DNA of 48,541 nt, taken from a virus. This document shows positions 1,887-29,396 of the stretch, one piece after another (positions within the stretch are counted from its first letter, which is position 1; each line of letters opens with the position of its first letter). The stretch is from positions 1 through 48,541 of the IMG/VR virus record IMGVR_UViG_3300028592_000020; one strand, written 5' to 3'. Both the position numbers and the translations under genes were made by a program. The notes below the pieces were generated by a model that was not told the origin of the DNA, ran no database searches, and saw only the letters and a list, made by a program, of their open reading frames with translations.

Positions 1887-3206
1887 TTAGGCCGGCAGCC
1901 ATTTGTTGGCGACGAGCTTGTCGTAGATCAGGTCCACAAAGACCGGCAGGCCGATCGCGTTACTCAGATGGGTCGAGTCGCCTCGGGTTGACCGTGGCCA
2001 CAGCCCGTTGGCTACGTCAGCGATGTCGTTAGCCGAGCCGTCGCTGGCTGCCTGCATGCCTGTCAGAGTTTCGCAGTAACGGGCCGCCCCGACATGCGCG
2101 AGGATTGCCGCCTGGTCTGCGTCCCACCCTGGGCGTGCAGCATGCCCTATCGGTACAATAGGGTTCGGCTGCACGTAGAGAAAGCGTCGATGGGTGAGCT
2201 TGGCGACCATTGCGTCGATGGCAGCAATCGATCTCGCCCCATTGATTTCATTCGAGCCGTCAACCAGCACCAAAGTGCTGTCATAGGCGTAGGGAGTCGT
2301 CAGGAACCTTGCCAGATGATCTTCGAGGTTCTTGGAGCCAACACCATCCTGCGACAGGTTAACAATGTCACCAGCCGCCTCCAACAGGCTCTGCTTTAGA
2401 TACATCAGTATCCGGCCGTGGGTCAGGAAACTGTCGCCCAGCAAGTGCACTGGATACGCCTGACCCGTATCATTGGCCTTTCGCATTTCGACTTCGGACA
2501 GGGCTCGCGTCCAGATGGTGACCGACCGCAGCGTCACGTTCTGAGTGAACGTCCCTGTCGCGGGGTTTCGCATGAAGTGGAGTGTCGTCGGGGCGGCGAT
2601 GGTTCCGAATGAACCAACAAGGTTTGTCGCCTTTGACGCCCCCCAGATGGCTCGCCCTTCCGAGCTGTTGCTGCGCATAGAGAAGATCGAACGATTTATG
2701 CCAGCAAAGGTCATCAGCCCGCTGCTCTGCGCGTCAGCTTCAGAGGCGGCGATAGAGAACGCGGACGGCGAAGCTCCCTGCATACTCGTGTAGAAGCGCC
2801 AGTCAGGAAGGCCCGCTCCAGCAAAGGTGAAATAGCGATACTGAGTTCCACTATTATACCATCCGAAGATGGTGCCACCGGGGTTATTGGGGTAGGTAAG
2901 CTCGTACTCGAGCTGAACGGTCAGATCGCCAGTCCAGGTCGCGCCGATGGACGACCATGCCTGCGTATAGCTGCCGTCCCCGATGGCGGTGAGGTCGCTG
3001 GTCGTCTTGGCCGCGCCGTTCCACCAGCCCCGATTGTTGATGAAGTCGATGTGGAGGTTAGCCCCGCCAGGCAGCCACCAGTTGGTGATCTCCGCGTTGC
3101 CGTTCGACAGATCGTAATACTTGGTGCCGTCGCTGTAGACCCGGCGCAGGGCGCCATTGACGTTTTGCTTGGCGTGATAATTCGCTCTCGGCGAAGGCAA
3201 CGGCAT
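1887..3206 (-). CDS. SGNH/GDSL-hydrolase tailspike-like protein
   Basis: 439 aa. The N-terminal half (to about residue 235) is beta-rich and LamG/concanavalin-like. The C-terminal half has SGNH hydrolase blocks in order: LLGDS near residue 254 (catalytic Ser), VDGSNE near 315 (block III, normally GxND), and DSTH near 410 (Asp-His dyad). SGNH enzymes on phage spikes deacetylate or de-esterify host capsule or LPS, so this is probably a receptor-modifying spike. It starts 1 base inside the stop of the upstream 289-aa gene (TGATG), so the two are translationally coupled and probably work in the same appendage. The exact substrate cannot be read from the sequence. Confidence 0.75.
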   Translation of the reverse strand: MPLPSPRANYHAKQNVNGALRRVYSDGTKYYDLSNGNAEITNWWLPGGANLHIDFINNRGWWNGAAKTTSDLTAIGDGSYTQAWSSIGATWTGDLTVQLEYELTYPNNPGGTIFGWYNSGTQYRYFTFAGAGLPDWRFYTSMQGASPSAFSIAASEADAQSSGLMTFAGINRSIFSMRSNSSEGRAIWGASKATNLVGSFGTIAAPTTLHFMRNPATGTFTQNVTLRSVTIWTRALSEVEMRKANDTGQAYPVHLLGDSFLTHGRILMYLKQSLLEAAGDIVNLSQDGVGSKNLEDHLARFLTTPYAYDSTLVLVDGSNEINGARSIAAIDAMVAKLTHRRFLYVQPNPIVPIGHAARPGWDADQAAILAHVGAARYCETLTGMQAASDGSANDIADVANGLWPRSTRGDSTHLSNAIGLPVFVDLIYDKLVANKWLPA

Positions 3207-4075
3207 CAGATGACTTCCGCGAGAATGGCGGTGAAGAACGTGTTGAGCGTGGCGTCAAACGCTGCAATCTGGGCGTCCGTTAAGCTGCCGCCAGCGGCGG
3301 AATAGCTATATTGTTTGGTGGGCGCAGTGGTTGCAACGCCTGCGTTGTTCAACGTCCCCTCATACCAAACGCGGTTCTGGATGGCCGAACTGGCGCCGGT
3401 TCCCGTCGCGATCTGAGTGCCGTTCTTGAATACCGCAGTGGCCCCTGCCCCGGAACGGCGCACGACATAGCGGCCAATCGCGGTCGCGTTCGCGACCGAG
3501 ACGACTGTCGTGTCTTCGTTGATCCTGGCAAGCAAACCTCCGGCCGCGTCGTTCCGTATTAGGATATTCGCATTATGGGCGATGTTGCTAGTCCGTTGCC
3601 CAATGTCGAAGGCGTTCTGGTTCGCATCCGTCCGACTACCGATGCTGAAGAAGGCATCGTCGCGCAGGTACTTGTACGTCCGTAACCCATCGCCGGGATT
3701 GAACCCGACATTGATGTAGTTGCCCGACCCAGCCGAACAGACAAACCCCTCGTTCTCGGTGAAGACCGGCGAACCGACCTTGGTGGCATTGCTGTAGTCG
3801 CCGACCCAATTGAGCAGCGCGTGCGCTTCCGTCTCTGCCGAGCGGACCTGAAGATAGTCCAGCTCATCCCAGACCGTTGCGCCCACTAGCGAGCGGATAA
3901 GGTTGTTGATGTTGGTCTTCCGGGCCTCGGATGGAGATACGCCAGTCGCCGTCATGCGCTCGAACAGGGCGAGCGACTGAGGTAGTACCCCCACACCCTC
4001 AATACGGGCGTGCCGCCGGCGCCGGTTGTAGTAGTACGCCAGATACCCGGCGCGAGTTACCTTCACGTCGGGCAT
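3206..4075 (-). CDS. Tail appendage / LamG-like structural protein
   Basis: 289 aa. Residues of about 45-95 are helical (TGVSPSEARKTNINNLIRSL, then WDELDYLQV), followed by a beta-rich region with many G/N/T residues (VGSPVFTENEGFVCSAGSG), which looks like a concanavalin-type jelly roll. It has no catalytic motif that I recognise. The start is ATG at 4073-4075 with AAGGGG five bases upstream. Coupled to the SGNH spike downstream and placed between decoration genes and gp11, it is probably a tail-spike partner or anchor. Family name uncertain. Confidence 0.6.
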   Translation of the reverse strand: MPDVKVTRAGYLAYYYNRRRRHARIEGVGVLPQSLALFERMTATGVSPSEARKTNINNLIRSLVGATVWDELDYLQVRSAETEAHALLNWVGDYSNATKVGSPVFTENEGFVCSAGSGNYINVGFNPGDGLRTYKYLRDDAFFSIGSRTDANQNAFDIGQRTSNIAHNANILIRNDAAGGLLARINEDTTVVSVANATAIGRYVVRRSGAGATAVFKNGTQIATGTGASSAIQNRVWYEGTLNNAGVATTAPTKQYSYSAAGGSLTDAQIAAFDATLNTFFTAILAEVI

Positions 4076-4084
4076 GGCGGCCCC

Positions 4085-4591
4085 TTAGCCTGCCGCGGAC
4101 TGCGCGGCGATCTTGGCGGCCTGCTGGGCGACCTTGCGGTGCACCGAGCGGCGATTGATGTGGCTCTGCCGACCCTTGAGGGTCTGGAACACCGCGGAGC
4201 CGGCGGCCTTGGCGGCTGCCGTGATCTCGTCACGGTCGGCGCGATCAGCGGCCTTGGCCATGCGGCGGGCGGTCAGGTTGTCGACCTGCTGGCCGGGCTC
4301 GAGGCGGGAGGCCTGCAGCACCGGTGCGCCGGCGTAGAGACGATCTTCCTTCTGCGCCTGCGCCTTGTTCTCGGCCTGCTTGACCTTGGCCGGGCTCTGC
4401 TCGCCGAAACGGGCGATCACCTTGGCCTTGTTGGCTGCAATGGCAGCGGCCTTATCCTCGCCGCGGGGCGGGTGCAGCTCGGCGGCTTCACGCGTCGCCT
4501 GCTCGGCGTGGGCGGCCTGGGCAGCACGGCGACGGACGCGGTCGGTCCCGCGCGGCGCCACCGGGCTTACGTTGTTCGGGGTGTCGACCAT
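4085..4591 (-). CDS. Alanine- and charge-rich hypothetical virion-region protein
   Basis: 168 aa, rich in Ala, Lys, Arg, Gln and Glu, predicted almost wholly helical (for example KAAAIAANKAKVIARF and KVKQAENKAQAQKEDRL). It ends in a basic tail with two Arg-rich runs. I do not recognise the family. The start MVDTPNN (ATG 4589-4591) is chosen because the same frame upstream is antisense-like noise over the neighbouring gene; AAGGA lies 11 bases before it. A DNA- or capsid-binding accessory role is possible but not shown. Confidence 0.6.
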   Translation of the reverse strand: MVDTPNNVSPVAPRGTDRVRRRAAQAAHAEQATREAAELHPPRGEDKAAAIAANKAKVIARFGEQSPAKVKQAENKAQAQKEDRLYAGAPVLQASRLEPGQQVDNLTARRMAKAADRADRDEITAAAKAAGSAVFQTLKGRQSHINRRSVHRKVAQQAAKIAAQSAAG

Positions 4592-4697
4592 GGTCGTCAA
4601 AATCCTTGTTTCTGGTTGGGTAGTGGGGCCGCCGGGAGGAGGTTGGGCAGCCCCACCAGGGCGATCGGGAGGAGACCTATCGCCTTTCTCGTTCCGC

Positions 4698-5354
4698 TTA
4701 GCGCTGCTGCACCACGCGGATATAGTCGATGAGCATGGTGTTCGCGACCGCTTCACCGGTGGTGAACGCGACCGAGACGCACAGCTCGGTGGTCGGGCCG
4801 TAAGTGGCGAAGGGCACCGCGCCGACACGCACATCGTTGATGAAAATCTGGATGTTGGTGTCCACGCCGTCCCAGTACCAGCCGACCTTGATCCAGGTGT
4901 CATCGACCAGCGTAGCGATACCCGCCGTGGTCGACACGGCCGAAGCCTTGGCCGAAACGAAGTCGAGCAGGGCGTCGCCGTCATCGGAGCCGAAGTAGAC
5001 GCCATCGGAGACGGCAAACGGCGTGGTGTCGGTGATCTGCAGGCCGAGCACGAAGTCGGTCTGGGTGACGTCGTTGATCTTGAAGCGGGCCTCGAACTCG
5101 ATAGCCTTGTTGGCGGCGAGGCGCCAGCATTCGATCTTCTGCTGGTAGCCGGAACCGTCGTTCTCGGTGGCGCCAGTCGTCAGCGTCAGGACGCCGTTCG
5201 GATCGTCGGTATCGACGGCGATGGTGTTGGTGCCCTGGAGCGCCGTGATGGTCCAGTCGGTGGCGAGGTAGTCGCCGGTGCGCACGAAATCGTTGACGTA
5301 TTCAACGAAGTCCATGCGCGGCAGGTCCTGCCAGAATTTGCGGTAGGTGGTCAT
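4698..5354 (-). CDS. LamG/concanavalin-like head decoration protein
   Basis: 218 aa, mostly beta strands, with the pattern of a laminin-G/ConA-like domain: an early FEARFKI strand, a WIKVGWYWDG strand, an IQIFINDVRVG strand and a closing MLIDYIRVV strand. It lies just downstream of the major coat gene (separated by the tRNA-like element), where head fibres or decoration proteins are usual in podoviruses. ATG at 5352-5354 with AAGGAG nine bases upstream. Lectin-like binding of host or environmental glycans is inferred. Confidence 0.6.
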   Translation of the reverse strand: MTTYRKFWQDLPRMDFVEYVNDFVRTGDYLATDWTITALQGTNTIAVDTDDPNGVLTLTTGATENDGSGYQQKIECWRLAANKAIEFEARFKINDVTQTDFVLGLQITDTTPFAVSDGVYFGSDDGDALLDFVSAKASAVSTTAGIATLVDDTWIKVGWYWDGVDTNIQIFINDVRVGAVPFATYGPTTELCVSVAFTTGEAVANTMLIDYIRVVQQR

Positions 5355-5401
5355 TTGTAGACACTCCTTGCGCGGGATGCTGCCCGGGCGTCAGGTTCTT
5401 T

Positions 5402-5427
5402 GAGGGCGGGGCCGTAGCCCCGCGCTC
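5402..5427. other. GC hairpin downstream of tRNA-like element
   Basis: Perfect 7-bp stem GCGGGGC (5406-5412) / GCCCCGC (5417-5423) with a CGTA loop, extended by three more pairs past one mismatch. No T-tract follows on either strand, so it is not a good intrinsic terminator. It may stabilise the 3' end of a processed coat mRNA or tRNA-like transcript. Confidence 0.45.
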
Positions 5428-5439
5428 AGATCAGTCGAA

Positions 5440-5542
5440 GACCGGTGTGGGATTTGAACCCACGGGAGCCTAGCATTGCACTCGTAACGTGCGCGTCAGC
5501 CCTCTTGTTTCGATCACCCTTAAACCACTCAGGCAACCGGTC
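5440..5542 (-). tRNA. tRNA-like gene (class II-like, anticodon unresolved)
   Basis: On the minus strand there is a perfect 7-bp acceptor (GACCGGT/ACCGGTC), a D-arm-like segment (CCTGAGTGGTTTAAGG) and a perfect T-arm (GTGGG TTCAAAT CCCAC). The total is 103 nt, longer than a normal tRNA. The middle is odd. A triplet CGA (Ser) occurs in an ATCGAAA loop close to, but about 3 nt short of, the expected position, and has only two flanking base pairs. A better stem, GCAC-GTTACGA-GTGC (triplet UAC), lies too far downstream. No CCA is encoded. It could be a degenerate tRNA-Ser, an unusual tRNA with an insertion, or a tRNA mimic that marks RNase P/Z cleavage between coat and decoration genes. Confidence 0.55.
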
Positions 5543-5555
5543 TCCTGCCAACAGC

Positions 5556-14715: not shown

Positions 14716-17175
14716 CTAGGGGCTGCCGTCCCCCCGATCCCGTCCCCCCACGACCTGCAGTTTTGCGAGCGCTTCGGCGACGCTCTTGTTGCTCCCGGGG
14801 ACGCCGTTGCGCAGGATTTCGCGCCTGCGCTCCTCCGGGTCGACGTTCACCCATTTGGTCGCCTGCGTCGTTGTCCGAGCGTAGATCGGGTACTTCTTAC
14901 CCTCCACCCTGATTACCCAGCTGGGGCCGTCCTTGGCACCGACGCGGAACAGCCTCGTCTGGATGGCGCGCCTGGCGATGGTCTCCCAGCGCTCGGGGAA
15001 GTCGTAGGCGTTGACTTCCTTCTCATGGCGCATAGCCTCCAGCACCTGCTCTGGCACCACCAGTGCGCCGGGCAGCACCTGCAGGGCGTCAGCCATCGCC
15101 CTGTCGATCGAGGACGCCGCAAGCTCTGTCATCGCTTGCTTGCCCGACGTCATCGGCGGCGGCAGGTAGGGCGAATATTCACCCAGGTCGAGCTCCTCCA
15201 GCCACGCGGCGAAGGCGCCGATGTTCTCGGGCACCTCCATCCACTCGTTCACCTCGTTCCAGAAATCCAGGTCGCGTCGCTCGCCGTTGGTGCCAACCCA
15301 GATGCGCCGGTCGTCGGCCGGCAGCGGCAGGGCGTCGGCATGGTTGGTGGCGATGAAGTAGGTCACGTACGAGTAGGCCGAGAAGGGCGGCAGGCCGTGC
15401 CTGACGAAGTGCCTGAGCTTGGCGCGGGGCTCGACCAGCTCCTTGATCCGCTCGTAGGTGTCGCGCTTGGCGGCGAACACCGAGCCGCCCTGCGCTTCCG
15501 AACTCTCGTCGACTGTGACAAAGAGCGTCTCGGCGCCCCAGCTGTTGTACTGTGACTGGTAGGTCTTGCCGGCGAAGGTGGCGAAGTCGAGCGCCTTGAC
15601 GTAGCGCTGGCCGAACAGCTTCTCGATGATCGTCGCCATCGTGCCGCGCCCGGTGCCGTGCTGGCGCGCCACCATCACCACCGCCGGCCCGGGCACCTCG
15701 GGGTGTCGGTACTTGTAGGCCAGCCAGCAGGTGAACCAGTGCCGCTCCTCGGCGTCGGGCAGCAGCTGCTCGAGGAAGCGCAGCCCGACCGTGGCGTCGC
15801 CGCCCTCTGGGTGCACGACGGGAGTATAGACGTTGACGTACTTGTGCGCTCCCTCCTCATAAATCGGCCGCGGCATGTCGGGCCGCATGCGCAGCCCGCG
15901 CACCTCGGTTAGGCCCTCGCTGGCGGTCCACACGTCAACGGGGTTGATCCGTTTCTCGCCGCCCTTCGGCCCGATCTCTATCGTAGCGTAGCGGTTCATG
16001 GCGGTGCGGAAGTTGGTCAGCGTCATGCCGTCCATCACGCTTTCAGCCCACAACGGCACCACCTGCAGCTGCTGGTAGGGGCACAGCGCGTAGGAGCGCT
16101 GCAGCTTGGCAACCGTGGTCGAGAACTCGTCGGCCGACGACAACTTGTTCAGGCGCTTCTGCTTGGCCTCGCTGGCGAGATCGGCCAGCTTCTTGAGCCG
16201 CTCGGCGACGAGCGCCACGTCGAGCTGTCGGCTTTCCTCTGCCACCGGCGCCTTATCGGCGGCGAAGTGCGTGACGCCGGTTGCGCTGTCCCAGACGAAG
16301 ATGTCTCCGTTGTGCCCCTTGCCTACGAGACAGCGCGTCAGCGAGTGACCGCGGCCGGGTTCGATGAACGAGGCCGACACCCGCAGGCCTTCCTCGCCGG
16401 CGCGCTCGCGCAGCGCCGCGAAGGTGACGTCGGTCTCGCCTTCGTGCGTCTCGAACAGCATGTCGTCGACCAGGTCGAACACCCGCTCGGCCTCGGTCTC
16501 GCCCTTCTTCGTCTTCGCTACCGGCGTCCAGCCGGCCGCGGCGAGCAGCTCCTCGACCAGATCGATGATCTTGAAGACGTCAGCCTTCGTCAGCTCCGGC
16601 AGCACGCTGAGCGGCGCCGTCAGCGGGCTGCCGTCGATCAGCTCGTGATGGTCCTCGCCCTCCCGCCGCGTTACTCCCGGCGCCCACTCGTATGCGATCT
16701 TAACGCTGCCGTCAGGCTCTCGGGTGTGGGCGCCGAACGCTCCGAACTGGCGCGCAGCAGCTCCTCCAAACGCTTCCACGACATGGGAGCCGTCCGCGTC
16801 GATGTCAGCGCCAGGTGCAAGCCAGCGTCGGGTGGCAATGCGACCGAAGGGCTCGTCGACGCGGATGAACCACGCTTCCTTGTTTCCCTTGCCAAATCGT
16901 ACGAGCGCGCCTTGTAGCGCTGGATGTGCCTTTTCGACGGCATTCGCGATCTCCTCCATGATCTCGTGGTCGATGTCGAAGTCGAGCACGCCGAGACCGT
17001 TCTCGACGCGCAGGCCGGTGTCCTTGAACCGTGAGTGTTTGCGCTCCCAGGTGGCGATCAGCTCGGGCGTCACCTCGAGCGTCGGCCAGTTCTTGAGGTA
17101 GGTGGTCTTGCCGACGTTGGCGATTGGCGAGTAGCCGTTGGCGAGGAGCTGCAGGCGAATTTCGGTGGGGGTCAT
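14716..17175 (-). CDS. PrimPol - SF3 helicase fusion
   Basis: 819 aa replicative primase-helicase. The N-terminal third is a bifunctional primase-polymerase with the metal-binding LGVLDFDID (Asp65, Asp67, Asp69) and a later DGSHVVEAFG strand. The C-terminal half is an SF3 AAA+-like helicase: Walker A HGTGRGTMA near residue 508, Walker B TLFVTVDESSE, and the sensor-like YFIATNHADALPLP then DDRRIWV. It would synthesise primers and unwind DNA for the split polymerase. ATG 17173-17175 is chosen because AGGAGG lies seven bases upstream; it overlaps the methyltransferase stop as ATGA. Confidence 0.85.
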   Translation of the reverse strand: MTPTEIRLQLLANGYSPIANVGKTTYLKNWPTLEVTPELIATWERKHSRFKDTGLRVENGLGVLDFDIDHEIMEEIANAVEKAHPALQGALVRFGKGNKEAWFIRVDEPFGRIATRRWLAPGADIDADGSHVVEAFGGAAARQFGAFGAHTREPDGSVKIAYEWAPGVTRREGEDHHELIDGSPLTAPLSVLPELTKADVFKIIDLVEELLAAAGWTPVAKTKKGETEAERVFDLVDDMLFETHEGETDVTFAALRERAGEEGLRVSASFIEPGRGHSLTRCLVGKGHNGDIFVWDSATGVTHFAADKAPVAEESRQLDVALVAERLKKLADLASEAKQKRLNKLSSADEFSTTVAKLQRSYALCPYQQLQVVPLWAESVMDGMTLTNFRTAMNRYATIEIGPKGGEKRINPVDVWTASEGLTEVRGLRMRPDMPRPIYEEGAHKYVNVYTPVVHPEGGDATVGLRFLEQLLPDAEERHWFTCWLAYKYRHPEVPGPAVVMVARQHGTGRGTMATIIEKLFGQRYVKALDFATFAGKTYQSQYNSWGAETLFVTVDESSEAQGGSVFAAKRDTYERIKELVEPRAKLRHFVRHGLPPFSAYSYVTYFIATNHADALPLPADDRRIWVGTNGERRDLDFWNEVNEWMEVPENIGAFAAWLEELDLGEYSPYLPPPMTSGKQAMTELAASSIDRAMADALQVLPGALVVPEQVLEAMRHEKEVNAYDFPERWETIARRAIQTRLFRVGAKDGPSWVIRVEGKKYPIYARTTTQATKWVNVDPEERRREILRNGVPGSNKSVAEALAKLQVVGGRDRGDGSP

Positions 17176-17969
17176 TCTGCGGCCTCCTTCTGGCTGGGCC
17201 ACAGCCGCTCGCTGGCGATGTCGTAGTAAGCAGGGTCTTTCTCGATCAGGATGGCGTTCCTGCCAGTGTTGCGCGCGGCGACGCCTGTGGTGCCGCTGCC
17301 CGCTGTAGCATCGAGGACGGTCTGCCCCGGCTGGCTGTATGTCCTGATCAGGTACTCAAATAACTTGACTGGCTTCTGGGTGGGGTGCAGGCCCTTGTCA
17401 CCGCCAGTAGGCGACGTGTTGATGTGGAGCAGCGTGTTAGGGAAGCTGACGTCTACGGCGTCTGTTCGCGCAGCGCTCGGGTCGTGCGCTCCGTAAGAGC
17501 TTGACGTTCCGCCGCGAATAGGCGGCCTCTGGTCTTTCTTCGGCTTGGGCGTTTTCTGGGGGTAGTAGGGGCAACCGCCCTGCGCAAAAACCAGAACGCT
17601 CTCGTGCTTACGCAGCGGGGCTCGGTTTGCGTTAAGATGGCCTACAGGATGTGATTTTACGTACAGCCATTCATGTTTGAAGGCTTTAGGTTGCGACATC
17701 ACCAGCGCCGAGGAGAAAGGCTGCGTTGCGGTGAGCACCACCGCGCCCGTGCACACCCGCCAGAACTCAGCCCACATCGGCTCGAAAGGTATAACGCTGT
17801 CCCAGGCGTTCTGCGTCGTGCCGTAGGGCAGGTCGCACAGGATCATGTCGACCGATCCGGCCGGCAGCCGCGCCATCTCCTCGAGGCAGTCGCCCTCGAT
17901 AAGCTCCACCCACGGCGCAGCAACTTGTTGACCGCCTGTAGCGGTCCCACTATATGTAGACGTGCCCAC
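17172..17969 (-). CDS. Beta-class N6-adenine/N4-cytosine DNA methyltransferase 1
   Basis: 265 aa. The catalytic motif IV is DLPYG (residues about 46-50, after ELIEGDCLEEM) and the SAM-binding motif I is DATAGSGTTG near residue 222, the order of beta-class amino-methyltransferases. HPTQKPVKLFEYLI is the usual motif before motif I. DLPY is a DPPY variant. The start is GTG 17967-17969 with GGAAGGTG just upstream. It would modify phage DNA to avoid host restriction. No partner restriction gene is present. Confidence 0.85.
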   Translation of the reverse strand: MGTSTYSGTATGGQQVAAPWVELIEGDCLEEMARLPAGSVDMILCDLPYGTTQNAWDSVIPFEPMWAEFWRVCTGAVVLTATQPFSSALVMSQPKAFKHEWLYVKSHPVGHLNANRAPLRKHESVLVFAQGGCPYYPQKTPKPKKDQRPPIRGGTSSSYGAHDPSAARTDAVDVSFPNTLLHINTSPTGGDKGLHPTQKPVKLFEYLIRTYSQPGQTVLDATAGSGTTGVAARNTGRNAILIEKDPAYYDIASERLWPSQKEAAE

Positions 17970-17992
17970 GAAGCACCTTCCTTTCCACAGCT

Positions 17993-18029
17993 GAAAAATA
18001 GAACGCCCGTCCTCACCAGACGGGCGTTC
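17993..18029 (-). terminator. Rho-independent terminator after DnaA-IV gene
   Basis: Perfect 11-bp stem (GAACGCCCGTC 18001-18011 / GACGGGCGTTC 18019-18029), 7-base loop, followed on the minus strand by TATTTTTC. It starts three bases past the stop of the DnaA-like gene and separates it from methyltransferase 1, so a promoter for the latter must lie within a few tens of bases. Confidence 0.88.
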
Positions 18030-18032
18030 ATC

Positions 18033-18371
18033 CTATTGGGTATCGATCTGCGCCTCAAGCGCGCTGATCCTGGCGTCGAACTCGGCGTCGTCGCGCAGGT
18101 CCTCGACGCGCTGGGTGGCGTACTTCACGGTGTTGTGGGACTTGCCCAGCACCCGTGCCGTGCGCTTCACCCCGCCGTCCCTGTCCGTGACCGGCCTCAC
18201 GCCACCACCGCGCGTCGGGTGGCCAGCCGGCCCGGGCATCTGGGTCAGCAGATACCACCAGACGTGCCGCGCCAGCGCCACGTCGCGCGGCTGGCCGCGC
18301 CCGGTGATGGCCGAGCAAGGTACCTTGAACTCCTTCGCCACGGCGCGCAGGAGCTCGTCCTGGCTGGTCAT
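18033..18371 (-). CDS. Stand-alone DnaA domain IV-like DNA-binding protein
   Basis: 112 aa. It aligns by eye with the C-terminal DNA-binding domain of the replication initiator DnaA: LLRAVAKEFKVPCSAITGRG, then the basic loop and ALARHVWWYLL, and the signature helix GKSHNTVKYATQRVEDL (the DHTTV-type motif). There is a Gly/Pro-rich insert of about 25 residues between the halves and no AAA+ ATPase. ATG 18369-18371 has GAGGAG eight bases upstream. It could recognise DnaA boxes in the phage origin or compete with host DnaA. Confidence 0.75.
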   Translation of the reverse strand: MTSQDELLRAVAKEFKVPCSAITGRGQPRDVALARHVWWYLLTQMPGPAGHPTRGGGVRPVTDRDGGVKRTARVLGKSHNTVKYATQRVEDLRDDAEFDARISALEAQIDTQ

Positions 18372-18619
18372 GGTGCGATCTCCTCGATGAGCGACACCGG
18401 CAGCCAGCGCAGGTCGCTCTCGACGCGGAGGGCTGTGGGCGCCCATGAGCGCACCTCAGCCCCACTAGGCGTGTAGCCGACGAGCGCGCCGCTCGCGGTA
18501 TCTACCTCGACCACCGTCTGCCATCCCTTCGGGTGTGGCTTGTTCGGCTGCGGCTTGGCGTCGCCGCGCAGCTTCACGCGGACGCCGGGGCGGAGCAGGG
18601 TGAGATCAGGTTTTGCCAT
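18368..18619 (-). CDS. Hypothetical protein (small beta protein)
   Basis: 83 aa, probably beta-barrel-like: PGVRVKLRGDAKP, WQTVVEVDTASGALVGYT and a final WLPVSLIEEI. The pattern is like short SH3/KOW-type domains but no family is assigned. AAGGAGGT lies eight bases upstream of the ATG (18617-18619). Coupled to the DnaA-IV gene (ATGA). Confidence 0.55.
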   Translation of the reverse strand: MAKPDLTLLRPGVRVKLRGDAKPQPNKPHPKGWQTVVEVDTASGALVGYTPSGAEVRSWAPTALRVESDLRWLPVSLIEEIAP

Positions 18620-19313: not shown

Positions 19314-20345
19314 CTAGCCTAGTGATTTGGTATAGAACCAGTTGTCGACGACTTCCGCGACGAGCGGCAGGTCGGCCCGCCACTCGGGCTTGTACTCCAT
19401 CGCGTCTTTCAGGTGGCGCGACACGTCCGTGATCCAGCCGGCGTCGTCAACGGCCTCCATGATTATCTCGTCATGGGTGTGGCCGATAGTCTCGCCGTGG
19501 CGCGGCGGGTGCTTGTCGAGCAGCACCAGCGTCTCGCGCAGGATCGACCCCGCCACCGCCTGGGTGATGTTCTCGGCGCACTTGCCGTGCCACAGCGCCG
19601 ACCAGCCGTACCCCTTGCGATACCAGATGGCGGTCTTCTCGCTCTCCTCGCCGGTGTCCTTGTCCTTGACCTTGCGCGTCCTGAGCTTGCAGTCGGGGTA
19701 GGTGAGCAGCCGGCCGCAGGGCAGCGCGCAGAACAGCGTGCCGTCCATGTAGCCGGGGTCGAACACGTAGGCCACCCGCCCGGCAGGATAGGCCGTGCCG
19801 GGGTTGCGCAGCGCCATGTTGACGGCACCCCACAGCCCGCTGGCGCGCTCGATCTCGCCGTGCTTGTCGACGTAGAACTTGCCCCAGAAGTCGGGCGCCC
19901 ACTGGTTGCGCGCGCGCCAGCTTTCGACCAGCGACTTCGCCGCTGGCTCGTCAAAGTAGACCTTATAGTTGACGGCCATCTTCTGCAGCGCACCGACACC
20001 GCCGCCGAAGCCCAGGCTGAGCACCGGCACCTTGCCCCGGCTCTGTCGCTCGTCCTTAGTCACGTCCTTGGGGTCTTTGCCCATCAGCTCGCCGGCGGTA
20101 ATCTCGTAGATGTCGGGCAGCGAGGGGTCGGCATCGTTGGTGCGGAAGATGTCGAGGACGCGCTCAGCCCCCGGCGAGGCAGCCAACCAAGGCAGCACTC
20201 TTGCCTCAATTGCGCTGAAGTCGCCCCATACCAGCGTCTTGCCCGGCGGGGCGATGAAGGTCGGCCTGATCAGCATGCCGAGGCTCTTGCCGACAGGGCC
20301 GATCTCGGCGGTGAAGCGCTCGAGGAAAGCGGGGTCGAGCTTCAT
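19314..20345 (-). CDS. Family A DNA polymerase, C-terminal half (motifs A, B, C)
   Basis: 343 aa polymerase fingers/palm. Motif A is GDFSAIEAR (catalytic Asp42), motif B is the O-helix RQSRGKVPVLSLGFGGG (residues about 100-116; the usual K and Y/F of the family seem replaced by this phage-type variant), motif C is THDE near 293 (catalytic Asp). The protein starts just before motif A and lacks all upstream motifs, which are encoded at 22791-24047. The start is ATG 20343-20345, with AAGGAGG seven bases upstream, overlapping the methyltransferase stop as ATGA. Both halves keep all motifs, so a two-subunit enzyme is likely. Confidence 0.88.
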   Translation of the reverse strand: MKLDPAFLERFTAEIGPVGKSLGMLIRPTFIAPPGKTLVWGDFSAIEARVLPWLAASPGAERVLDIFRTNDADPSLPDIYEITAGELMGKDPKDVTKDERQSRGKVPVLSLGFGGGVGALQKMAVNYKVYFDEPAAKSLVESWRARNQWAPDFWGKFYVDKHGEIERASGLWGAVNMALRNPGTAYPAGRVAYVFDPGYMDGTLFCALPCGRLLTYPDCKLRTRKVKDKDTGEESEKTAIWYRKGYGWSALWHGKCAENITQAVAGSILRETLVLLDKHPPRHGETIGHTHDEIIMEAVDDAGWITDVSRHLKDAMEYKPEWRADLPLVAEVVDNWFYTKSLG

Positions 20346-21469
20346 TCTGCGGCCTCCTTGACAGCGGTGGGCCACAGCCGCTCACTAGCGATGTCATAAT
20401 ACTCAGGGTTCAACTCGATCAGCGTCGCGTTGCGCCCGTGGCGGCGAGCCACCACACCGACCGTGCCGCTGCCACCGAAGGGGTCGAGCACCGTACCGCC
20501 GACAGGACACCCGGCAAGGATGCACGGCTCGACGAGCGCTTCTGGGAAGGTGGCGAAGTGCGCGCCCTTGAAGCCTTTCGTCGGGATGGTCCAGACGTCG
20601 CGCTTGTTGCGCATTCCGTTGTCGGCGGTAAGGAATTCCCGGTAGTAGCCCTTCAGGACGGCCTTTGCTTCATCAGCCAGCGCTTGCACTTCGGGTAGGT
20701 TTTTGCCGTAACCGCTTTGCGTCACTTGCGCTTTGCCTACGTCTGACACGCCGCATGACCTGATAGCGGCGATGTGCGCGTCGGTCAGACCGTGTTCTGC
20801 TGCGAGCGCGAGCGCTCGTTTAAGCTGCGGGCGCTCGGACGTCACCGACGGCTCGGCTATGGCGTCGGCGTCGAAGTAGTAGCGCTCGTTCTTGCTCAAG
20901 AGGAACACATACTCGTGCGCCTTGGTGCAGCGGTCGCGCACGCTCTCCGGCATTGGGTTCGGCTTGTGCCAGATGATGTCCTGGCGCAGATACCAGCCGT
21001 CGGCTTGCAGGGCGAAGGCAACGCGCCACGGGATGCCGATCAGGTCTTTGTCTTTTAGTCCGGGTACGGGACCGACGCCGTTACGGTTGCGCTGCCCACG
21101 AGCGTCGACTACGCCGTCAGCGCGTCCGCTGCCAGGGCGAAACTTACGCCCCTGCGCTTCGCCGTAGCCCCAGCGCTGTTCGTTTTTGCCGCCGGGACCG
21201 CTGCCGCCTTTAGCTGGCGCTCTTGCGTAGCTATCGCCGAGGTTAAGCCACAGCGTACCGTCGTCGCGCAGCACGCGCCGCGCCAGCCGCATCACACCGA
21301 CCAGCGCCTCGACGAACTCGGCCGGCGTCGGCTCAAGCCCGATCTGGTCGCCGTGGCCGTAGTCGCGCAAGCCGAAGTAGGGCGGCGAGGTGACGATGCA
21401 GTTGATCGACTGCTCAGGCATCTCGGCCAGCACGTCGCGGCAGTCGCCCTCGATCAGTTCGACGCTCAC
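20342..21469 (-). CDS. Beta-class DNA methyltransferase 2 (SPPY)
   Basis: 375 aa. Motif IV SPPYFGLRDYG (residue about 24) and motif I DPFGGSGTVG near 336, with a target-recognition stretch of about 250 residues between. SPPY is usual for N4-cytosine enzymes but also occurs in N6-adenine ones. The C-terminus (YYDIASERLWP, then KEAAE) is the same as in methyltransferase 1, and the DNA around the stop/next start is identical over 18 bases. The start is GTG 21467-21469 overlapping the previous stop (GTGA); longer frames upstream are antisense-like noise. Confidence 0.82.
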   Translation of the reverse strand: MSVELIEGDCRDVLAEMPEQSINCIVTSPPYFGLRDYGHGDQIGLEPTPAEFVEALVGVMRLARRVLRDDGTLWLNLGDSYARAPAKGGSGPGGKNEQRWGYGEAQGRKFRPGSGRADGVVDARGQRNRNGVGPVPGLKDKDLIGIPWRVAFALQADGWYLRQDIIWHKPNPMPESVRDRCTKAHEYVFLLSKNERYYFDADAIAEPSVTSERPQLKRALALAAEHGLTDAHIAAIRSCGVSDVGKAQVTQSGYGKNLPEVQALADEAKAVLKGYYREFLTADNGMRNKRDVWTIPTKGFKGAHFATFPEALVEPCILAGCPVGGTVLDPFGGSGTVGVVARRHGRNATLIELNPEYYDIASERLWPTAVKEAAE

Positions 21470-21786
21470 TGGATGGTACTCCCCTCTGGCACGATCTCCT
21501 CGACGATCTGCACGTCGAACCCAGCCCTGACCAGCATCTCCTCGATGCGCTTGCCGTAGGCGACGCCGTTCTCGGCGAGGTGCAGGTCGAACCGTTGGAC
21601 GTAGGGTCGGGAGTTCTCGTTCAGCTCGATCAGCATCTCGGCGACGTGCCACTGGGCGCGCGTCACGGCGATGAACCACGCCGGGCACTGGTGCGTGAGC
21701 AGCTGCTCCATCGTCTTGAGCGCGGCGTCGAAGGCTTCTTCGCAGCTGCCGCACTGGCAGAGCGGGGTGTGGTTGGGGTTGCTCAC
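21466..21786 (-). CDS. Hypothetical protein with Cys cluster
   Basis: 106 aa. LCQCGSCEEAF near the N-terminus could be half of a metal site but no second pair is obvious. The rest is helical (AALKTMEQLL, VAEMLIELNENS) with a final YGKRIEEMLVRAG helix. Coupled on both sides (4-base overlaps). No family recognised. Confidence 0.5.
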   Translation of the reverse strand: MSNPNHTPLCQCGSCEEAFDAALKTMEQLLTHQCPAWFIAVTRAQWHVAEMLIELNENSRPYVQRFDLHLAENGVAYGKRIEEMLVRAGFDVQIVEEIVPEGSTIQ

Positions 21787-22477: not shown

Positions 22478-22798
22478 CTAGCGCGGCGTCGACCCGAAGT
22501 CCAGCCCGCGCGCACCGACCGGCACGTGTGGAGCCTCGCCGTCAGTCATGCCGTCGTAGCGATGCTCGGCATCGCGCGGCGCGAAGCGCGAGCCCTGGCG
22601 CTCGATGTCGTGCGGGTGGTCGTCGTCCTTGTCGTCGCGCCCGAAGTAGACGGTGCTATTCACAGGCCCGCGGTCCTGCCGGGCGGCGAGCTTCTGCTCG
22701 TAGCTGGGCGTCTTCTGGCGCATGACCAGCACCAGGCCGAGGCCCAGCCCGGCAGCGAAGGCGAACACGGTCAGCAGGGCAATCATCAGGTTACTCAT
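22478..22798 (-). CDS. Single-pass membrane protein
   Basis: 106 aa. An N-terminal transmembrane helix (LMIALLTVFAFAAGLGLGLV) followed by a polar, charged tail with a DDKDDDHPHD stretch and prolines. N-in/C-out or the reverse cannot be decided. The ATG (22796-22798) overlaps the stop of the polymerase N-half by 8 bases, so the two are coupled. It could tether replication proteins to the membrane, but that is speculation. Confidence 0.55.
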   Translation of the reverse strand: MSNLMIALLTVFAFAAGLGLGLVLVMRQKTPSYEQKLAARQDRGPVNSTVYFGRDDKDDDHPHDIERQGSRFAPRDAEHRYDGMTDGEAPHVPVGARGLDFGSTPR

Positions 22799-24047
22799 AT
22801 TCGATCTCCAGTTGGTTGATGAGTTCGATCGCGTCGATCTCACGGTCAGGATGCGCCTTGTCGGTTAAGGAAGCGCGAATGAGGTTGTGCACCTGGACGC
22901 CCACCGACGAGAACCGACCGGTCTGCTGGGCGCCGTTGAAGCGGTATTGACCCTTCAGCCGGCCGTCGTCGTGCTGGTCCACGATCTTCTGGAACTTTGC
23001 GGGCGTAGCCGATGCGCCGAACGAGCGCGCCTCGGCGATCTCTAAGAGCTCGAACTCCTCGTCCGTCAGACCTTCGCGCTCGTCGAGCACGTCGAGGTAG
23101 TTGATGTAGGCGTCGAGCCGATCGGCGGCGATCGACAGCTTCGACGGCACTAGCTCGTCGTCCTCGCCGGTGACGTTGTCCTCCTCGGTCCATGCCTTGA
23201 CCAGCGTGTCGCGCAGCTCGGCCGTGGCGCAGTGGTCGTAGAGCCAGTTGGCGATCCGCTCGCGCTGCGTCACCTTGGTGATGGCGCCGCCGGTCAGCCG
23301 GGTGATGCGCGCGTTCAGGTGCCTGGCGTTCAGCTCGGCAATGGCCGCGGCACGATCGGCGAAGTCGACATCGACGGCGATGCCGCGGTCGTTGATTTTC
23401 TCCGACACCCAGTACTCTTCCCACTCGCGGCGCGGCAGCGGGCGGGTCGCCTTGAACACGGCGCGCAGCTCGTCGACGTCCTGCGCGCCGTAGCCGCGGG
23501 TGAAGTCGTGCCACTCGGCGGGGTTGGTCTGCGGCGTGTGGGTGGTCCAGTCGCCGGTGGTGAACATCTGGATATAGTTCTTGCCGCCCTCGTGTTTGCC
23601 GCCACGGCCGATGGCACGGCTGGCGCCCTCGAGCTTGGCAGGCAGGTTGCTCGCCACCGCCTGCGCCATGCAGTCGATCGCCATGTCGGGGCGGATGACG
23701 CAGTGCTTGACGCTGGCCGACATCATCAGCCGGTCGAAGGTGGTGTTCCAGGCGACATACCAGGCCTTGCCGGCGAGCGCCCGCTCGTGAAAGCGGAGCA
23801 GCTTCTCGGGCATGAAACCGTAGGCCCACATGAAGCGGCGGGTCGGGTCGAAGTCCTTGAACGAGGACACCTCGACCGGCTCGTCGCCGATCGCGTACTG
23901 GATGACGTTCACCACCGCGCACTTGGAGTAGCGGTAGGCACCGACGAGGGGCAGGCTCTCGTCGATGGTGTTGTGGAATTGCGGGAGCGCCTTGGTCTCG
24001 GTGTCGAGGAAGCAGAAGTCGTTGATGTCGTCACTGAGCGTCGACAT
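22791..24047 (-). CDS. Family A DNA polymerase, N-terminal half (3'-5' exonuclease + thumb)
   Basis: 418 aa. The proofreading domain is complete: ExoI FLDTE (Asp15, Glu17), ExoII NTTFD (about residue 104), ExoIII YGAQDVD (about 189). A long thumb follows, then the conserved TGRFSSVGVQVHNLIR (about 378-393) that in intact enzymes lies just before motif A. The frame ends about 20 residues later; motifs A-C are encoded separately at 19314-20345. ATG 24045-24047 lies 17 bases inside the zinc-ribbon gene and has no RBS, so it depends on coupling; a TTG at 24093-24095 is an alternative. Confidence 0.88.
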   Translation of the reverse strand: MSTLSDDINDFCFLDTETKALPQFHNTIDESLPLVGAYRYSKCAVVNVIQYAIGDEPVEVSSFKDFDPTRRFMWAYGFMPEKLLRFHERALAGKAWYVAWNTTFDRLMMSASVKHCVIRPDMAIDCMAQAVASNLPAKLEGASRAIGRGGKHEGGKNYIQMFTTGDWTTHTPQTNPAEWHDFTRGYGAQDVDELRAVFKATRPLPRREWEEYWVSEKINDRGIAVDVDFADRAAAIAELNARHLNARITRLTGGAITKVTQRERIANWLYDHCATAELRDTLVKAWTEEDNVTGEDDELVPSKLSIAADRLDAYINYLDVLDEREGLTDEEFELLEIAEARSFGASATPAKFQKIVDQHDDGRLKGQYRFNGAQQTGRFSSVGVQVHNLIRASLTDKAHPDREIDAIELINQLEIEYE

Positions 24048-24201
24048 CACGGGGCTCGCGCTTAGGGGCAGGGAGGGCTCGGCTCGGTACGTCAAAGCAG
24101 ACAGCTACCTTGTCGCAGACTTCGCAGGGGCCGCGCGATACGCCTACCCAATACGCCTTCGGCCAGCCGTTCTTATCGGCACAGGTTTCGCAATAGAACA
24201 C
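24031..24201 (-). CDS. Small zinc-ribbon protein
   Basis: 56 aa with two CxxC pairs (YCETC and PCEVCD) spaced by 20 residues, a rubredoxin-type zinc ribbon. The start is GTG 24199-24201 with AGGAG seven bases upstream. It overlaps the start of the polymerase N-half by 17 bases and so feeds ribosomes to it. A nucleic-acid or protein-binding adaptor role is inferred. Confidence 0.65.
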   Translation of the reverse strand: MFYCETCADKNGWPKAYWVGVSRGPCEVCDKVAVCFDVPSRALPAPKREPRDVDAQ

Positions 24202-27709: not shown

Positions 27710-27969
27710 TGGCTGATCCTATCCACTTCGACGGCGCCAACACAACGCTCGGTGCCCCCGCCGGCAACGAGCACAACGTCGAGCCGCTGCACGTATTCCG
27801 CAACGGGCGCGTTTGCGTGTCCTGCTGGAAGCTGACGCCGGAAGAGATCGCCGCCGGCGTGGTATTCCTGTCGGTTTATAGCGGCCATACGCAGCCGCCT
27901 GTGCTGGTGGCTGACGAAGATACGACACGCTCGGTGTTGGCCGATGTCGGCGGGGTGTGGAAGAAGTGA
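27709..27969 (+). CDS. Hypothetical protein
   Basis: 86 aa. PLHVFRNGRVCVSCWKLTPE contains CVSC, a possible half zinc site, followed by the hydrophobic GVVFLSVYSG. ATG overlaps the preceding stop (TGATG). The pattern is soluble; it may help the SNF2 protein it precedes, as the genes overlap. Confidence 0.5.
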   Translation: MADPIHFDGANTTLGAPAGNEHNVEPLHVFRNGRVCVSCWKLTPEEIAAGVVFLSVYSGHTQPPVLVADEDTTRSVLADVGGVWKK

Positions 27970-29396
27970 GGGCGAAGTCCGATCTACGCAGCGCCCAGCA
28001 GCGCACCATCACCAAGCTCTACGAGGAGCCGGCCGTAGCTGCGGTGCTCGGCATGGGCGCTGGCAAAACCGCCAGCGCTCTCACCGCCTTCGTCGAGCTC
28101 AAACAAGACGGCCACGCGCAGGATATGTTCGTGCTGGCGCCGAAGCGTGTCAGCCAGCTGGTATGGCCGGCCGAGCCGCGCTTGTGGGAGCACCTGCGCC
28201 ACCTCAAGGTGGTGTTCGTCGGCGGCACCGCGGCGCAGCGCCTGCAAGCGCTCAAGACCCCGGCCGACATCTACGCCATCGGCATCGACAATACGCAGTG
28301 GTTCGTCGACTGGATGGCGACGCAGAAGCCTGCCCGCCTGTCGCGCAGCGTGCTCTGCATCGACGAGAGCTCGCGCTTCAAGAACCCGCGCGGCAAGCGC
28401 GGCAAGGCGCTGTTCTCCTACCTCTACAAGAACCCGGCGGCGTTCCTCGCCATCTGGGAGCTGACCGGCACGCCGCGCCCGAACGGCTACGAGGACCAGT
28501 TCATGCCGCTCAAGCTCGCTACCCGTGGCAAGCTGTGGGGCAAGAGCTTCGATCGCTGGCGCGAGGCGAACTTCTACCCGGTCGACTACAACGGCTACAA
28601 CTGGCGGGTGCAGCCGGAAAAGGAGAAGTCGCTGATCGCCGCGATCAATACGGTGACGATCACTATTCCTTTCGACGAGATGCCCGACCTGCCGATGCTC
28701 AACGACGGCCCCGACTTCATCGAGTGGGTCGATATGCCGCGCGACGTGCGGCCGGTCTACGACACCATGAAGAAGCACCTGGTCGCCGAGCTTGAAATGC
28801 TTGGGCAGACGGCAGCCGCCGCAAATATGGCGGTGGCGAGCGGTAAACTGAGCCAGATCGTGCAGGGCTTCCTGTACGGTGAAGGGCAGGCCTATAGCCG
28901 CGACGGCGCTGGCAAGCACTGGCGCAACGCTGAGCGCCTGCACGACGTCAAGATGGAACGCCTGCTGGAACTGATCGAGACCTTGGACGGCGAGCCGGCG
29001 CTGATCGCCTACGAGTTTCAGGAAGACCTCGCCCAGTTGCGCGGCCAGTTCCCGAACCTGCCTTATCTCGGCGCCGGCGTGAGCGACAAGGCGGCGATCG
29101 AGTTCGAGCACGGCTGGAACGAGGGGCGCTTCCCGGTCGCGGCGGTGCACCCCGCCTCGGCTGGCCACGGCCTCAACCTGCAGCACGGCGGGGCGCAGCT
29201 GTTCTGGTACGGCATGACCTGGTCGGCCGAGCTCTACGACCAGCTGCTCAAGCGCCTGCACCGCCCCGGCCAGACGCACCCTGTTTTTTCCCGACCGATC
29301 CTCATGCGCGATACGGTCGACGAGCTGAAGTACGAGCGCGTGCGTAACAAGATGACCGCGCAGGCGGCATTTCAACGACTACTCAAGGAGGTATGA
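27957..29396 (+). CDS. SNF2-type DEAD/DEAH helicase
   Basis: 479 aa, the phage-type SNF2 protein. Walker A GMGAGKT (residues 32-38), motif II IDESS near 134, motif III-like ELTGTPRPNG, and motif VI RLHRPGQT near 433. It translocates on double-stranded DNA to remodel replication or recombination intermediates; the adjacent VRR-NUC gene suggests joint work at branched DNA. GTG 27957 is taken as start; GTG 27966 (GTGA overlap) is an alternative. Ends inside the next gene's start region (KEV then TGA). Confidence 0.85.
   Translation: MEEVRAKSDLRSAQQRTITKLYEEPAVAAVLGMGAGKTASALTAFVELKQDGHAQDMFVLAPKRVSQLVWPAEPRLWEHLRHLKVVFVGGTAAQRLQALKTPADIYAIGIDNTQWFVDWMATQKPARLSRSVLCIDESSRFKNPRGKRGKALFSYLYKNPAAFLAIWELTGTPRPNGYEDQFMPLKLATRGKLWGKSFDRWREANFYPVDYNGYNWRVQPEKEKSLIAAINTVTITIPFDEMPDLPMLNDGPDFIEWVDMPRDVRPVYDTMKKHLVAELEMLGQTAAAANMAVASGKLSQIVQGFLYGEGQAYSRDGAGKHWRNAERLHDVKMERLLELIETLDGEPALIAYEFQEDLAQLRGQFPNLPYLGAGVSDKAAIEFEHGWNEGRFPVAAVHPASAGHGLNLQHGGAQLFWYGMTWSAELYDQLLKRLHRPGQTHPVFSRPILMRDTVDELKYERVRNKMTAQAAFQRLLKEV

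Follow-up and report, generated by a model that had tools for sequence, protein, structure and literature searches.

Phage proteins made up of DnaA domain IV alone usually carry the annotation of a replication initiator. The domain also stands alone in GafY (HdaB; CCNA_01111; NCBIfam PRK06030), an activator of alphaproteobacterial gene transfer agents (GTAs). As a transcription activator, GafY contacts RpoD, requires IHF and acts on GTA promoters, and the authors argue that it has no replication role at oriC (PMC9632790, PMC11150451). A phage precedent exists in GafA, which is present in the roseophage RDJLPhi1 (PMC6363796). We took gp38 of this phage, which carries RRIEDLRSSPEWDCIVEALE in the alignment, to be the GafA homologue mentioned there. 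Here, we describe P0001, a protein of this type encoded in an IMG/VR virus record of 48,541 bases, the whole of which is referred to as the window. The features of the locus are collected in Table 1.

Table 1. Features of the P0001 gene, its product and its immediate surroundings (positions in the window).
Feature	Position	Strand	Evidence or remark
P0001 gene; putative stand-alone DNA-binding protein of DnaA domain IV type (GafY side), 112 aa	18033..18371	-	ORF, profile, codon and structure evidence
Shine-Dalgarno-like GAGGAG, 8 bases 5' of the P0001 ATG	18380..18385	-	Sequence
Intrinsic terminator hairpin, 12 pairs followed by TATTTTT	18001..18029	-	3 bases past the P0001 stop; z -3.5
Helices 1-3 with basic loop (AITGRGQPRDVALARH), aa 4-44; R407 equivalent retained, Q in place of R399	18240..18362	-	Profile, model, alignment
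Gly/Pro-rich insert of 18 residues, aa 46-63, between helices 3 and 4, predicted disordered	18183..18236	-	Alignment to relatives, model
Helix-turn-helix, aa 64-92; recognition motif GKSHNTV (DnaA GRDHTTV; GafY GRDRTTV)	18096..18182	-	Model, alignment
C-terminal helix RVEDLRDDAEFDARISALE, aa 88-106, common to GafY and phage GafA (RDJLPhi1 gp38)	18054..18110	-	Profile, alignment
CTTTCCACA, DnaA-box-like site of the preliminary description, chance-level match	17981..17989	+	Methyltransferase leader, adjoins ribosome-binding site

P0001 is the product of a real gene. The ORF has a codon score of 0.23 and a GC3 of 0.91, like the confident genes of the phage, and the competing frames score negative. 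A Shine-Dalgarno-like sequence precedes the ATG, and the start overlaps the stop of the preceding 83-aa gene by 4 bases. The gene lies downstream of the DNA polymerase gene, and because the terminator follows directly behind it, it closes a unit with the polymerase palm gene (19314-20375). Its replication neighbours are the two PolA pieces (19314-20375 and 22791-24095) and a primase (14716-17202). The ORF and its SHNTV helix were correctly recognized in the preliminary description.

Several further observations were made on the genome. The family A DNA polymerase is split: the N-terminal part (22791-24095, minus strand) corresponds to positions 671-989 of phrog_17, the palm part (19314-20375, minus strand) to positions 992-1230, and a DNA methyltransferase (20342-21754) and small ORFs lie between the two. 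Mel-JY33 and Nsp-JY18 have the same polymerase unsplit, as one 748-aa gene. In the closest relative (IMGVR_UViG_3300033067_001096, 3024-4976), the palm gene is apparently broken by an intein-like stretch (CLGADTLVATDGGWKRIVDV ... FIVHN). The two genes preceding that of P0001 (18368-18619 and 18606-19301, minus strand) have a short G-RV-L-G...P-GW-V element in common (BLASTP E 0.007), which may represent a small beta domain present as a repeat. The intergenic stretch 5355-5555 contains a tRNA-like T-arm (GTGGGATTTGAACCCACG), which received no call from ARAGORN or Rfam and may be a degenerate tRNA or an attachment remnant; the genome has no tyrosine integrase. Against the mostly minus-strand orientation of the genome, a lone SNF2-type helicase gene (27957-29396) lies on the plus strand; the divergent region beside it spans 710 bases and contains no clear gene.

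In the ORF search, P0001 matched the Pfam family Bac_DnaA_C (PF08299) with 32.3 bits (E = 1e-7), marginally above the cut-off of 31.5. The genome search, in which it appeared as a single frame match, gave 27.4 bits, below the cut-off. The alignment is confined to aa 5-45, because the insert interrupts the match. The AlphaFold2 model, calculated from an 11-sequence alignment, yielded six helices and a disordered loop at approximately aa 45-63 (pLDDT 83.8, pTM 0.76). In the Foldseek search of the PDB, the sole matches with E<=0.001 were the DnaA domain IV structures 3pvp and 1j1v (TMq 0.68-0.71). In the viral structure library, lone phage proteins ranked at the top, many with the name 'DnaA C-terminal'. 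With both sets of structural matches, the predicted DnaA domain IV fold is firm. The DnaA AAA+ domain (PF00308) is absent from the genome, and P0001 itself comprises only 112 residues. The earlier proposal of a domain IV without AAA+ thus held in the profile, the model and the structure search, whereas the 25-residue insert that it described was reduced to 18 residues by alignment to relatives.

P0001 belongs to a kind of phage protein that is already known. A search of annotated phages using E. coli DnaA-IV (an approximate sequence) returned 61 records, a few of which look like bacterial sequences deposited under phage names. Among the records are lone DnaA-IV genes, often annotated as such, from Rhizobium, Bradyrhizobium, Aurantimonas, Pelagibacter, Microcystis and uncultured phages. 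P0001 alone as the query found no direct homologues in annotated phages or IMG/VR, and it fell into no significant PHROGs family. Phages whose primase comes nearest (45% and 35% identity) lack the gene, which makes it accessory in this lineage.

Within this superfamily, the sequence of P0001 leans to the transcription activator GafY and not to DnaA. Its best NCBIfam match was PRK06030, an uncharacterised small-protein model, and not DnaA. Among 84,980 species genomes, six relatives were found, all in Hyphomicrobiales. Gene order identifies the best chromosomal relatives (L008, L012 and L013) as gafY: all three have DUF6456/gafZ next and then sufE on the opposite strand, and L012 and L013 also have mucR upstream. 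The arrangement matches that reported for these bacteria (PMC9638019). In order to avoid circularity, we built a GafY profile independently of P0001, from 26 genes that the PRK06030 model retrieved in 121 genomes. P0001 scored 41.3 bits on the GafY profile versus 23.5 bits on the DnaA-IV profile, and 5000 shuffles of the protein reached a maximum of 12.6 bits on the GafY-type profile. The six phage DnaA-IV proteins preferred the DnaA profile by 14 to 62 bits and the 33 DnaAs by 84 to 123 bits, while all GafYs preferred their own by 48 to 103 bits. The score of P0001 is far below the 98-153 bits of true GafYs. A second profile comparison (A5 vs A3) was circular, as A5 includes members of A3, and was set aside.

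The GafY signal was located in aa 62-112 (37.5 vs 14.2 bits), above all in the C-terminal helix, where P0001 carries the VEDLRDDAEFDA of GafY. The N-terminal half had no preference (12.2 vs 13.5 bits), which counts against a GafY-like reading. In the tree, P0001 and an IMG/VR relative, L092, joined the GafY side (99/87, 97/84). The GafY clade proper does not include P0001 (98/90), which sits on a branch as long as 3.2. This also speaks against the GafY-like reading, and we therefore regard P0001 as a GafY-side relative and not as a GafY. The DRTT recognition helix of GafY has an arginine at the H434 position in 26 of 26 GafYs, and P0001 has a histidine there. GafZ (DUF6456, PF20057), which accompanies GafY as an adjacent or fused partner, is absent from the phage genome. 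The missing arginine and the missing GafZ likewise count against the GafY-like reading.

Two related proteins deserve mention. The L092 phage protein (9866-10396) contains AITGR...VALARHVAMYL and has a basic loop nearly identical to that of P0001; it scored approximately equally on the GafY and DnaA profiles, as an intermediate DnaA-IV type. In Aurantimonas manganoxydans (L009, 7704-8666), inspection of the sequence by eye suggests GafY with an in-frame GafZ-like part, apparently a GafA-type fusion outside Rhodobacterales.

Our preferred explanation, in which confidence is near one half but does not exceed it, is that P0001 would be a GafY-like regulator that recognizes specific sequences and controls transcription from phage promoters. 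On the model of GafY, its binding site would lie upstream of a promoter, from where it would assist the host RNA polymerase (sigma-70). It would act alone, because the phage lacks GafZ. In favour are the DnaA domain IV fold, the GafY-leaning profile and tree results, the synteny of the chromosomal relatives, the phage GafA precedent and the replaced base contacts of DnaA (R399, D433 and T435). Binding to DNA, the sites bound and the role as an activator are inferred. The GafY core site ACTATG was not enriched in the window (2 seen vs 6.8 expected), which counts against the GafY-like reading, and no target motif for P0001 was found in the phage DNA. ACTATAT was seen 5 times vs 0.4 expected, but it was chosen post hoc and ranked 231st among the enriched 7-mers, so it was dropped. 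These motif results, together with origin binding as the main rival, keep our confidence at this level. P0001 suggests that at least some lone DnaA-IV proteins of phages belong with GafY/GafA-type transcription regulators, a membership that predicts promoter binding and not origin binding.

The main rival owes its place to the replication neighbours of the gene. P0001 could be an origin-binding protein that marks the phage origin at a site other than a DnaA box, to which it brings the primase, helicase or polymerase of the phage. Its position among the PolA pieces and the primase gene is consistent with such a role, as is the finding that other phage DnaA-IV genes also adjoin primase or replisome-organizer genes (AmM-1, ctOK67). 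However, P0001 leans to GafY and not to DnaA or to the phage proteins of the AmM-1/ctOK67 type, and a repeat search near the gene found no iterated site array. In the nearest phages, PolA and primase are the same but the gene is missing, so this replication system does not require it. We consider origin binding less likely than regulation of phage promoters, though still the strongest of the alternatives.

An effect on the GTA of the host is clearly less probable. P0001 would act either as an activating GafY mimic or as a blocker, through GafY sites, RpoD or GafZ. The GafY-like C-terminal helix in a protein without GafZ, and the wide occurrence of GafY in the order of the closest relatives, agree with this proposal. 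However, the recognition residues differ from those of GafY (RDR becomes KSH), which makes binding to GafY sites unlikely, and we know of no phage that hijacks a GTA by mimicking GafY. Equally improbable is a GafZ-independent, GafY-like phage activator with altered DNA specificity that is used against or through the host GTA circuit; if true, it would connect gene control in phages with the origin of GTA regulators.

Slightly lower still, we place a decaying accessory gene, left over from a host gafY-like gene that was captured and retaining little function. The long branch and the 18-residue insert would fit decay, as would the absence of a close homologue from phage and viral collections and of the gene from the nearest phages. 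On the other hand, the frame is intact, with strong phage codon bias, a ribosome-binding site, a coupled start and a terminator, and the predicted fold is confident.

The preliminary description proposed that the protein could direct the phage replisome to DnaA boxes or titrate host DnaA sites. The domain IV superfamily membership and the retained equivalents of R407, H434 and T436 would allow such binding. However, E. coli R399, D433 and T435, near-invariant in 33 alphaproteobacterial DnaAs and also conserved in other phage DnaA-IV proteins, are replaced by Q, S and N in the alignment. The DnaA box TTWTNCACA did not occur in the 48.5-kb window (0.6 expected), and its near-matches were at chance level (one mismatch, 6 seen vs 5.3 expected; two mismatches, 39 vs 43). 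The box-like site cited near 17980-17987 (TTTCCACA) is one of these chance-level matches. It lies beyond the strong terminator, 11 bases ahead of the methyltransferase start, and is explained as part of the leader of that gene. With the contacts replaced, the near-matches at chance, the cited site in another leader and the sequence leaning to GafY, binding of P0001 to DnaA boxes is unlikely, and this is the least probable of the explanations considered.

P0001 shares its fold and Pfam family with the domain IV of bacterial DnaA, which in contrast has AAA+ and domains I-III, as well as the R399, D433 and T435 box contacts that P0001 does not share. Like P0001, the DnaA-IV proteins of RHph_N28_2 (Rhizobium), AmM-1 (Aurantimonas), Greip (Pelagibacter), Bradyrhizobium prophages and many uncultured Caudovirales consist of a lone domain IV and are often encoded near replication genes. 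Unlike P0001, the six tested resemble DnaA in their recognition residues and score higher on the DnaA profile than on that of GafY. GafA of RDJLPhi1 (gp38) is also phage-borne and has an N-terminal helix-turn-helix followed by (R)IEDLR..PEWD...ALE, but at 310 aa it is a fusion whose C-terminal part is GafZ-like, and its gene adjoins a CtrA-like gene. Compared with GafY, P0001 has no GafZ/DUF6456 partner, SHN in place of DRT, the 18-residue insert, a position outside the GafY clade and a location in a phage replication operon. Both are stand-alone domain IV proteins without AAA+ and have the C-terminal VED-RDD-xFD helix, and GafY was the best profile match for P0001 among the DnaA-IV types tested. 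As a phage sequence that appears to lie near the base of the GafY clade, P0001 bears on the origin of the GTA regulators.
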